Positions 3,463 to 6,622 of a stretch of DNA of 64,000 nucleotides are shown here, piece by piece. The position numbers were made by a program, and so were the translations under genes. Source of the stretch: Desulfobacterales bacterium (GTDB lineage Bacteria; Desulfobacterota; Desulfobacteria; Desulfobacterales; SURF-7); contig JANQFQ010000086.1 of the NCBI GenBank assembly GCA_028277765.1, positions 1 through 64,000 on the forward strand, read 5' to 3'. Within the stretch, counting starts at the first letter, position 1, and each line of letters begins with the position of its first letter. Under the pieces are notes generated by a model that saw only the letters and a list, made by a program, of their open reading frames with translations, had not been told where the DNA came from and did not search any database.

Positions 3463-5199
3463 TTACATCTTTTTTCGAAGCTTTTCCAGGTTTTCCCGCG
3501 CAAACTCAATAGAAGGGTCGAGTTCAAGGGCTATCAGGTAATAATTGATCGCTTTTTTGGTGTCTCCTAAATCACGATAATTTGAAGCGATATTCGCGTA
3601 ATCAATAGCTGAGCTTGGATCTAGCTCAATTATTCTTTGAAAGCACCTGATCGCTTTTTCGTGTTCTTTTCTTTTAAAATAACAAAAACCCATTAGATTA
3701 TAAATATCGGTTCTTTCATTATCAACACGCTGTCCCTTTTTAAGAACTTCCAGCGCTTGTTCGTACTGTTTCATATCTTTCAGACAGACTCCCATGTAGG
3801 AGTATATGCTTGGAATGTCCTGCTCGTTCGGTTCAAGATCTAGAGCCTGCTCAAAAAGGTCCAGAGCTGTTTGGGTATTCCCAAGGGACAGATGACAAGA
3901 ACCTTTGTAGAATTTAATATAATATTTGCCTGTAAGTGTTTGTTCTATGTCATTAAGTTGTTTTATGGCATCTAATGGCCCATAGGTTTCAGTAATCATT
4001 TTTGCAGAAAACATTCCCACGCTTGTACCAAGGGCTCTTTCCCTGAAGTGGGCCCCTGGTATAATGGTGTAAAACGCTGGGATTTCAAGGCGGGGGTGCA
4101 TTGTGTTTATCAGGATGACATCCATCCCTCTTTGTTCTAAAGCGTTTATGCAGTTTTCAACCTCTGTTTTAATATTGTCGTTTGACAGATCCGGAAGGCT
4201 ATTTATATCAATTTCTTTTCCAGGATTCATTATAAAATCAGCATCAGACAGGACGGTAAACTTCGGGAGTCCACTGGCCACATAGTTAGAGCCCGTATTA
4301 AAATCTCCAGCAAGTTGGGCTGTTTCCGTCAGGGCTCGGCTTAAGGCTTTTTGGGGATCCGGTGTTGTTCCGGCTGTCCACACAATTTCGCTCTTTTCAG
4401 GAAACGTTGAGGGATCATAGGCCATAACCCCCACAGAAGGTATGCCCATATCGAGTGTAAAGTCTGAAATATACAATTTTATACCAGACTTATTATATTT
4501 TCCAAACATTTCCACAACCATTTCATCGCTCGTTGAATCAGGATTTATCAACGGCACTTTTCTTTTGCTGTGGCTGATAATTGAGGAAACGTGTCTTTCA
4601 ATAATTTCACAAATACCCTGACTGACCGCCTCCTCTGTACAGTTGCCTGCTGAAGGACCGTTGAATTCGTTAATCATAAAAAACCAATTAAACGGTACCA
4701 GGACCTCCTGTTGCTTTGTCATGTTATAAGCGCCAGTCCACTCAAGTGGAAGCGCCTCAAAAACAGACTGCGCTGCATCAAGATCAGAAGAATCATCATG
4801 AACAGAGGCTGCTATCATTTCAAACGGAATAGCCCTCTCCTTGAGGTTTTTCTTTTTTTCAGTGAAAAAATTTTCCGGATTTTTACAAAAGGTAAAAAAG
4901 CTGAACCGTTCAGCCAGCTCCATCACAGCACTCGCTTCTGCTTGAAGAGGTGTGGCCCCTTTACCCATCTGTTTATTTGTACCTGTAGTCTGCCTGGCAT
5001 CCTTTCCGCACACACTAAAAAAGACAGGTATATCGAGTCTGCCGTTATCTATCCGTCTTGTTTCTTCAAGTATGTCCAGGTCCAGTTCTTTTAATTTTGA
5101 TTTAAACTTTTTTATGGTCTCTTCCGGAGACAACACCTTGTCTTGATCAAGAGTAAATTTTTTTATCGCATCTTTTAAAACTATTTTTCCTGTCATCAT
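3463..5199 (-). CDS. YcaO-like domain protein with C-terminal TPR repeats
   Basis: YcaO core (TGTNKQMGKGATPLQAEASAVMELAERFSFF) followed by TPRs; start placed at MMTGKIVLKD (ATG 5199/5196 with GGAG upstream) rather than the track start 5340. Confidence 0.85.
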   Translation of the reverse strand: MMTGKIVLKDAIKKFTLDQDKVLSPEETIKKFKSKLKELDLDILEETRRIDNGRLDIPVFFSVCGKDARQTTGTNKQMGKGATPLQAEASAVMELAERFSFFTFCKNPENFFTEKKKNLKERAIPFEMIAASVHDDSSDLDAAQSVFEALPLEWTGAYNMTKQQEVLVPFNWFFMINEFNGPSAGNCTEEAVSQGICEIIERHVSSIISHSKRKVPLINPDSTSDEMVVEMFGKYNKSGIKLYISDFTLDMGIPSVGVMAYDPSTFPEKSEIVWTAGTTPDPQKALSRALTETAQLAGDFNTGSNYVASGLPKFTVLSDADFIMNPGKEIDINSLPDLSNDNIKTEVENCINALEQRGMDVILINTMHPRLEIPAFYTIIPGAHFRERALGTSVGMFSAKMITETYGPLDAIKQLNDIEQTLTGKYYIKFYKGSCHLSLGNTQTALDLFEQALDLEPNEQDIPSIYSYMGVCLKDMKQYEQALEVLKKGQRVDNERTDIYNLMGFCYFKRKEHEKAIRCFQRIIELDPSSAIDYANIASNYRDLGDTKKAINYYLIALELDPSIEFARENLEKLRKKM

Positions 5200-5245
5200 A
5201 TAAACTCCGTTTATTACTTCCTTTGCTGTTATTGTAAAACACCAC

Positions 5246-5260
5246 TGCCACAACGTGGTA
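5246..5260. promoter_or_regulatory. candidate operator TGCCACAACGTGGTA upstream of ycaO/TPR
   Basis: Near-perfect palindrome matching two copies at 52493-52507 and 52523-52537. Confidence 0.6.
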
Positions 5261-5382
5261 CAACCAGAGAATATAAATGTTTTTATATAAATTTGCAAGG
5301 GATTAAAGACCCGCACATAAACTTCTTGACAGAAAAACATCTATTGTTTAGAAGAATTATAGATACTTAAAGGATAACTATT

Positions 5383-5457
5383 ATGAATAGAAGCGTTACA
5401 GGCAGATTTTATTATTTTTGGTATTATTTTACCACCGGTCTGCCTGCCGCGCACTGA
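5383..5457 (+). CDS. aromatic amino acid leader peptide MNRSVTGRFYYFWYYFTTGLPAAH
   Basis: ATG with AAGGA upstream, eight consecutive Phe/Tyr/Trp codons, stop just before attenuator; directly upstream of DAHP synthase gene. Confidence 0.92.
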   Translation: MNRSVTGRFYYFWYYFTTGLPAAH

Positions 5458-5513
5458 TTTTCAATAAAAACAACCACCGCCGCGGGCAGACCTGATGTCC
5501 GCGGTTTTTTTTT
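5399..5513 (+). promoter_or_regulatory. ribosome-mediated transcription attenuator
   Basis: Region 1 CAGGCAGA 5399-5406 pairs with TCTGCCTG 5439-5446; region 2 GGTCTGCC 5437-5444 pairs with region 3 GGCAGACC 5485-5492; region 3:4 terminator stem CCGCGG...CCGCGG + T9. Confidence 0.9.
5480..5513 (+). terminator. intrinsic terminator of the attenuator
   Basis: Stem CCGCGGGCA / TGTCCGCGG (one G-U) with 7-nt loop, followed by nine T. Confidence 0.9.
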
Positions 5514-5516
5514 GGA

Positions 5517-5551
5517 GGCCGTGGGCAGAAGAGATGCTTCACGGCCTTTTT
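5517..5551 (+). terminator. second tandem hairpin with T-run in the leader
   Basis: GGCCGTG (5517-5523) / CACGGCC (5540-5546) followed by TTTTT. Confidence 0.7.
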
Positions 5552-5569
5552 GTGTTAAAGGAGAAAAAA

Positions 5570-6622
5570 ATGAAGCCGACATTTGATTTAAACGTTAAGG
5601 AGTTAAAGCCCTTGATATCACCCGAAGCCTTAAAAAAAGAACTGCCCATAACCGAAGAAATCAGCGATACAGTTATTGCCAGCAGAAAAACGGTTGAAAA
5701 AATTCTTCTGGGAGAAGACAGGCGTCTTCTGGCAGTCGTGGGCCCTTGTTCCATCCACGATGAAAAAGCTGTAGTTGATTACGCTGAAAAGCTGAACCAA
5801 CTTAAGGAAAAAGTGAAAGAAACCCTCTGCGTTATTATGCGCGTTTATTTTGAAAAACCGAGAACCACCGTGGGTTGGAAGGGGCTGATTAATGATCCGT
5901 TTATTGATTCTTCTTACAATATTGAAGAGGGACTGCGCAAGGCAAGAAAAATACTTCTTCACATCAACGGCCTTGGGCTTCCTGCGGCTACGGAGATGCT
6001 GGATCCCATAACCCCCCAGTATATTGCAGGACTTATAAGCTGGGTTGCTATTGGCGCAAGAACAACGGAATCTCAAACCCATAGAGAAATGGCGAGCGGT
6101 CTTTCTATGCCAATAGGCTTTAAAAATAGCACTGACGGAAGCTTGTCTGCAGCCCTAAACGCCCTGGAAGCGGCTCGAGCACCCCAGAGCTTTCTGGGTA
6201 TAGACTCAAAAGGATACACCAGTATTGTCCAAACAACCGGAAATCCATGGGGTCATATCGTGCTAAGGGGTGGCGGAGGACATCCGAATTATGATCCTGT
6301 AAGCCTTGAAAAAACACAGAAGAATCTGGAAAAACGGGGGCTTCCTACCGGTATTATGATAGACTGTTCCCATGAAAATTCTGGCAAGAAATATAGCGCC
6401 CAGCCGTTTGTATGGAACAGCGTCCTCCAGCAGCGCCTTGAGGGAAACGATTCCATCATAGGCATGATGCTGGAAAGCAACCTTAATGAAGGGAACCAGA
6501 AATACTCGGATGATCCATCTTGTCTTAAATACGGTGTGTCAATAACGGATGAATGTATTTCATGGGAAACCACAAAGGAACTGCTGCTTTACGCTGATGA
6601 AAAACTCGGAAGCGCTAGATAG
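5570..6622 (+). CDS. 3-deoxy-7-phosphoheptulonate (DAHP) synthase, class I
   Basis: LLAVVGPCSIHD, PRTTVGWKGLINDP, GARTTESQTHREMASGLSMPIGFKN; start at ATG 5570 with GGAG; track start 5495 lies in the terminator. Confidence 0.95.
   Translation: MKPTFDLNVKELKPLISPEALKKELPITEEISDTVIASRKTVEKILLGEDRRLLAVVGPCSIHDEKAVVDYAEKLNQLKEKVKETLCVIMRVYFEKPRTTVGWKGLINDPFIDSSYNIEEGLRKARKILLHINGLGLPAATEMLDPITPQYIAGLISWVAIGARTTESQTHREMASGLSMPIGFKNSTDGSLSAALNALEAARAPQSFLGIDSKGYTSIVQTTGNPWGHIVLRGGGGHPNYDPVSLEKTQKNLEKRGLPTGIMIDCSHENSGKKYSAQPFVWNSVLQQRLEGNDSIIGMMLESNLNEGNQKYSDDPSCLKYGVSITDECISWETTKELLLYADEKLGSAR

Follow-up and report, generated by a model that had tools for sequence, protein, structure and literature searches.

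The window, a stretch of 64,000 nucleotides from a Desulfobacterales bacterium, carries on its plus strand a gene for DAHP synthase preceded by a short leader ORF with eight consecutive aromatic codons and by a series of complementary RNA segments, here called regions 1 to 6. The features of the locus are as follows.

5326..5354, plus strand: promoter-like element, TTGACA (5326-5331), a 17 nt spacer and TAGAAG (5349-5354), matching the consensus at 10 of 12 positions
5369..5374, plus strand: ribosome-binding site AAAGGA of the leader ORF, from the sequence
5383..5457, plus strand: leader ORF MNRSVTGRFYYFWYYFTTGLPAAH, 24 codons plus TGA, ATG at 5383, conserved at orthologous loci
5399..5406, plus strand: region 1, CAGGCAGA, forming the protector stem 1:2 with region 2 through 8 perfect pairs with TCTGCCTG (5439-5446)
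5407..5430, plus strand: eight consecutive aromatic codons, TTT TAT TAT TTT TGG TAT TAT TTT, the putative regulatory stall site
5437..5447, plus strand: region 2, GGTCTGCCTGC, partner of region 1 or, in the antiterminator, of 5482-5492 (folding, covariation)
5479..5505, plus strand: terminator 1, region 3 (5479-5488) with region 4 (5496-5505), the U-tract running to 5513 (folding, terminator scan, covariation)
5496..5527, plus strand: 4:5 anti-terminator-2 hairpin, 5496-5509 with 5514-5527, 14 pairs including G-U and a 4-nt loop
5515..5551, plus strand: terminator 2, GAGGCCGTGGG..TTCACGGCCTT, region 5 (5515-5525) with region 6 (5538-5548), U-tract 5547-5551 (folding, covariation)
5557-5563, plus strand: ribosome-binding site AAAGGAG of the DAHP synthase gene, from the sequence
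5570..6622, plus strand: regulated gene, DAHP synthase of type I-alpha (aroFGH family; NF009395, 509 bits; TIGR00034, 477 bits)

The closest solved relatives of the encoded DAHP synthase are of the AroF/AroG kind, i.e., Tyr- and Phe-sensitive enzymes. A listed ORF beginning at 5495 was rejected as the start of this gene because the ribosome-binding site and the homologous N-terminus belong to 5570. The promoter-like element puts the predicted transcript start near 5361, with the leader downstream of it; the original prediction had named a start downstream of 5457 as contrary to its model, and the sequence points instead to a promoter upstream of the leader. Promoter-like scores of at least 10 were reached in 21 of 88 relatives vs. 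1 of 88 shuffles, and a stricter promoter scan did not list the TTGACA-17-TAGAAG element. On the minus strand, a large divergent ORF (3463-5340, 625 aa as listed), reaching with its listed start into the promoter region of the leader, was found by eye to have a YcaO-like N-terminal part and C-terminal TPR repeats.

The aromatic block occupies codons 9-16 of the leader ORF. Eight aromatic codons in a row were found once among the 2,451 short-ORF starts of the window vs. never among 65,489 in 20 Markov-simulated windows, the two sets serving as the estimate of chance. The leader region also folds unusually well (z = -4.15), no shuffled sequence being equally good, and AGGA-type ribosome-binding sites, much alike, precede the leaders in most relatives.

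Region 2 has two possible partners, as GGTCTGCC (5437-5444) is fully complementary to GGCAGACC (5485-5492) in region 3. Terminator 1 is formed by CCGCGG..CCGCGG (5480-5504), its 10 pairs spanning 5479 to 5505 and being followed by nine T; it was detected by a consensus scan that expects about 0.4 terminators by chance. Thus, the leader ORF with its ribosome-binding site and eight aromatic codons proved correct to the base as originally predicted, and the predicted stems 1:2, 2:3 and 3:4 with the T9 terminator all lie where they had been placed. Folding of the free RNA predicted a switch that depends on the position of the ribosome. With the ribosome edge at 5420-5438, as for stalling on the aromatic codons, 2:3 formed with a probability of 0.97-1.0 and 3:4 was almost nil, while with the edge at 5466, i.e., at the stop codon, the probability of 3:4 was 0.99 and that of 5:6 was 0.85. 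Without a ribosome, the fold consisted of 1:2 plus 3:4. This agrees with the earlier proposal that stalling masks region 1 and favours antitermination. With the edge at 5441, corresponding to the last aromatic codon, region 2 is already masked and the termination fold results, thus indicating that the signal resides in the first six or seven aromatic codons.

The arrangement is conserved in the order Desulfobacterales, where orthologs of the DAHP synthase occur in 148 of 390 genomes. At about 100 distinct ortholog loci, a leader ORF with 5-9 aromatics in 9 residues and a C-terminus that is usually T-G-L-P-x-V-R-like lies roughly 90-370 bases upstream of the gene, the exceptions being a minority (L005, L013, L019, L053, L139, L179 and second gene copies). 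In 96 of the 99 leader-bearing loci, a terminator is located 3′ of the leader. Among 70 DAHP synthase loci from elsewhere (Halomonas, Pseudomonas, cyanobacteria, Verrucomicrobia and others), there were never more than four aromatics in 9 residues. At L039 and L009/L020 and in genomes G126 and G175, one contig carries two closely spaced DAHP synthase I-alpha genes; in the pairs of which both members were read, a leader precedes the first copy only.

The pairings of the core were evaluated by covariation in an alignment of 61 sequences, with shuffling and sliding as controls; both controls ignore relatedness, so the figures are not probabilities. The antiterminator 2:3 was paired in 87% of cells, with 27 double-change cells vs. 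7.2 in shuffled alignments, and in no more than 49% when slid. The terminator stem 3:4 was paired in 95.6% of cells with 43 double changes, and the protector stem 1:2 in 78.6% vs. at most 39.5% when slid, its covariation being weaker than that of 2:3. The covariation in relatives that had been proposed as a check revealed compensatory changes in 2:3 and 3:4 and, more weakly, in 1:2. Neither the leader codons nor the stem pairing had been lost at orthologous loci, a loss that would have spoken against the original prediction. With the leader, the terminator and the mutually exclusive stems conserved and compensatory changes present, the leader-peptide attenuation of the DAHP synthase is well supported.

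Full-length equilibrium folding of the relatives gave a different picture, since only about 15% of them switched, and in many of them 3:4 and 5:6 were favoured even with a stalled ribosome. Antitermination is decided during transcription, and therefore equilibrium folding is uninformative on switching in relatives and a kinetic, co-transcriptional argument is needed. We replaced this test by covariation and by folding to the end of region 3, which predicted 2:3 prior to the synthesis of region 4 in 95 of 96 loci.

The original prediction spoke of a textbook attenuator. The four-region core justifies this description, but a second terminator and the 4:5 pairing, both within 5383-5551, were overlooked. 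The hairpin of terminator 2 (5515-5548) begins ten bases past terminator 1, and its region 5 could base-pair with both the U-tract of terminator 1 and the 3′ arm preceding it. In the window, the resulting 4:5 hairpin has a free energy of -19.2 kcal/mol. When 2:3 is formed (edges 5420-5438), the predicted probability of 4:5 is 0.92-0.96 and 5:6 is almost nil, such that both terminators are lost. Conversely, the probability of 5:6 is 0.03 with region 4 free vs. 0.86 with region 4 sequestered.

Of 96 DAHP synthase I-alpha loci, 26 have terminator 2, as do 24 of another 63 loci, and its score was reached by 0.2% of shuffled sequences. It is met again, similarly close, before various genes, its 5′ arm being usually GGCCGYGG-like. 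In 46 of the 50 loci, 4:5 was stronger than the rival pairing 3:6 (-17.7 vs. -12.4 kcal/mol, Wilcoxon 2.5e-9). In a second alignment of 45 loci, used for covariation of 4:5, 3:6 and 5:6, the 4:5 columns were 92.4% paired, with 18 double-change cells vs. 4.3 shuffled (0 of 500 shuffles), and the 5:6 columns also showed an excess, whereas 3:6 gave no clear covariation excess in these 45 loci. In all 26 DAHP synthase loci tested, 4:5 has at least eight expected pairs before region 6 exists. When cognate 4:5 duplexes were compared with swapped ones, the difference was not significant (-19.4 vs. -18.4, p = 0.07); the GCCGYGGG motif is common to all loci, which weakens this test. At equilibrium, 5:6 prevails in most relatives even when region 4 is free, and a relay in them must therefore be kinetic. 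Tandem terminators also follow aromatic leaders at L220 and, before an aminotransferase-like gene, at L257; at L257 both hairpins carry the same changed core, GCCACGGG.

From the sequence, its conservation, the compensatory pairing and the predicted folds, we infer stalling, termination and a relay between the terminators. When Phe-tRNA or Tyr-tRNA (possibly also Trp-tRNA here) is short, the leading ribosome would stall in the aromatic block and cover region 1, and the free region 2 would pair with region 3 as soon as the latter is made, thereby blocking terminator 1. The freed region 4 and the U-tract could then pair with region 5, thereby blocking terminator 2, and RNA polymerase would read into the DAHP synthase gene. 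With charged tRNAs in good supply, the ribosome would reach the stop codon and mask region 2, such that 3:4 forms and terminates transcription, and a polymerase escaping terminator 1 would meet 5:6 as a back-up. In the absence of translation, 1:2 would set the off state. We consider it very probable that ribosome-mediated attenuation by stalling at aromatic codons operates here and acts on at least terminator 1. That one stalled ribosome disarms both terminators through the relay is probable too, if less firmly so, given the folding and the covariation in 45 loci. If true, the two-terminator relay would provide a tighter off state without loss of induction and a simple layout for more stringent genetic switches.

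The relay has to be weighed against a plainer scheme, in which a classical four-segment attenuator is followed by an unrelated or back-up terminator 2 without any 4:5 pairing, the latter adding termination at the cost of some constitutive loss. The core evidently works without terminator 2, which only 26 of 96 relatives possess, and the persistence of 5:6 at equilibrium in most relatives is what such a scheme would predict. The swapped control likewise shows that shared motifs alone yield much 4:5 complementarity, and the greater strength of 4:5 over 3:6 could reflect selection against a 3:6 misfold. However, the 4:5 columns co-vary as opposed to those of 3:6, which hardly do, and in the window 4:5 wins outright. 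Besides, an uncontrolled terminator 2 would block induction, and the fact that it turns up similarly close before various genes argues against an unrelated element. On balance, the back-up scheme seems unlikely to us, and the relay is the reading we prefer.

The strong conservation of the C-terminal T-G-L-P-x-V-R motif across the order might suggest that the nascent peptide itself arrests the ribosome, the signal being an aromatic metabolite and not tRNA charging. Yet it is region 2 that encodes the motif, and this region is bound to pair with regions 1 and 3; where the leader codon CTG (Leu) is changed to CCG (Pro), region 3 shows a matching A to G change (10 C-G vs. 66 T-A), so the peptide change follows the RNA pairing. 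Moreover, the aromatic residues swap freely, as the reading of codons predicts, and we regard arrest by the peptide as very improbable. Even less credit can be given to a T-box, a riboswitch or a protein-binding leader controlling the terminator, with the aromatic ORF being incidental. Leader terminators are often controlled in such ways, but a search of Rfam with 5250-5650 of the window gave no match up to E = 1, T-box included, and unrelated genes of this pathway are likewise preceded by the conserved ORF and its aromatic block. Stalling at the aromatic codons thus remains the preferred explanation.

The original prediction also proposed one sensor for Phe, Tyr and Trp. Support for this is incomplete: the codons of Phe and Tyr are near-universal in the DAHP synthase I-alpha leaders (103 and 106 of 106, respectively), and that of Trp occurs in 47 of 106. 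No enrichment of Trp was found in the leader blocks, where it accounts for 48 of 851 aromatic codons. The leader in the window has a single Trp codon, which is missing in most ortholog leaders. In C. glutamicum, the aroR leader Phe-Tyr-Phe responds to Phe and not to Tyr, according to PMC11802643; aroR holds a Tyr codon without a Tyr response, and hence the presence of a codon does not prove sensing. A single sensor for all three end products holds at most in some species, and that this copy senses Trp is a tentative suggestion, somewhat short of an even chance.

The same genome bears a second strong copy of the attenuator (L190, G000:C117:8677-8829, 102 bits), whose leader MSSNCSGRFDYFYRYYYDNALPGVC contains Phe and Tyr and is free of Trp; the gene behind it encodes PheA, a prephenate dehydratase with an N-terminal chorismate mutase-like part. 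It also bears a leader MKITCWWWQTINHGFANGTFLV with WWW and a terminator before TrpE (L191, G000:C39:11240-11382), a putative Trp attenuator. The presence of Trp in the common-step leader and its absence from the Phe-branch leader would fit end-product logic, as judged from the sequences of this one genome. Three weaker matches in this genome (L192-L194, E 0.09-0.4) were dropped, as they have no aromatic leader.

In the pheL and trpL leaders of E. coli, four regions form either a 2:3 antiterminator or a 3:4 terminator, the regulatory codons lying between regions 1 and 2. The window shares this mechanistic model, but each E. coli leader responds to one amino acid, controls a branch enzyme and not the first common step, and has one terminator. 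The enterobacterial his leader has six segments, which pair as A:B, C:D and E:F or as B:C and D:E, and only E:F is a terminator. The chain 1:2/3:4/5:6 vs. 2:3/4:5 deduced for the window from predicted folds and covariation alternates in the same manner; unlike in the his leader, both 3:4 and 5:6 are terminator-like, and 3:4 has its own U-tract of nine T. The E. coli pheL/pheA and trpL/trp attenuators go back to Yanofsky 1981 and Zurawski 1978, as cited in PMC11802643. The ilv leaders, e.g., that of Corynebacterium ilvB (PMC11109978), also hold codons for several end products (Ile, Leu, Val), which are branched-chain and not aromatic.

Two earlier cases concern DAHP synthase itself. For C. glutamicum aroR, situated before the aroF operon, attenuation by stalling was proposed from experiment (Neshat et al. 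2014, as summarised in PMC11802643). As in the window, an aromatic leader peptide precedes a DAHP synthase gene, whereas aroR has Phe-Tyr-Phe only, comes from a different phylum, and no second terminator is mentioned in that summary, the comparison being made by description. The uORFC-13-1 motif before aroF is a candidate attenuator known from 24 sequences, limited to Acholeplasma and environmental ones (PMC8632094). Like the window, it combines an uORF bearing Phe codon(s), a ribosome-binding site and a terminator before DAHP synthase; compared by description, it differs in having at least one Phe and no eight-codon block, and in occurring only before aroF (PMC8632094). The element is not described in the portions consulted of the Naville and Gautheret papers, the Actinobacteria survey, the RSSVM Shewanella study and the 50-genome ncRNA survey. 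A literature search, which left most subscription papers outside its scope, found no report of the family in this phylum and no leader-peptide attenuator with two linked terminators. Attenuation at the first common step of aromatic synthesis has so far been a matter of scattered cases, and here it appears as a broad family outside Rfam.

The breadth of this family was evaluated with a covariance model, R1, which matched 206 of the 395 phylum genomes searched (E <= 0.01) vs. 1 of 20 genomes from outside the phylum; the window itself, being a training sequence, scored 110 bits. Across the phylum, the matches lie mostly before aromatic-pathway genes. Among the 74 loci inspected, the gene behind the element encodes ADTH synthase in 23 cases, DAHP synthase I-beta in 12, shikimate kinase in 11 and DAHP synthase I-alpha in 8; inspection by eye added ABC solute-binding proteins, 3-dehydroquinate synthase II, an aminotransferase and MBL-fold proteins. 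Genomes devoid of the I-alpha enzyme (e.g., G034) have the same switch before the replacing enzyme. Taken together, the results incline us, by a narrow margin over even odds, towards a phylum-wide family in which one aromatic-codon sensor throws two serial terminators by relay and which has been kept before three exchanged first enzymes, namely DAHP synthase I-alpha, DAHP synthase I-beta and ADTH synthase.

With one RNA switch retained and the enzyme downstream replaced, the family clearly illustrates how regulation can outlast the protein it regulates. In addition, the element marks aromatic-regulon genes (ADTH synthase, shikimate kinase, apparent transporters, acyl-CoA ligase) independently of sequence family and can be used for assigning gene functions. 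The archaeal-type first enzyme, ADTH synthase, stands behind the attenuator at L195-L198, L200, L201, L203, L204, L206, L215, L217 and L221. Five loci (L230, L238, L250, L255, L261) bear Phe-rich leaders, e.g., MLKNYFFKKAVFFYFFSFINLKVCLTES, and terminators before ABC solute-binding proteins that look LivK-like by eye, which suggests putative importers of aromatic amino acids. A Tyr-rich leader, MQVYYYYYYYYTKGRNLPAY, precedes an ADP-forming acyl-CoA ligase alpha-type protein at L212 and L213, a ligase that may possibly serve an arylacetate route to aromatic amino acids. At L244 and L248, aromatic leaders with terminators are located before a putative MBL-fold protein.
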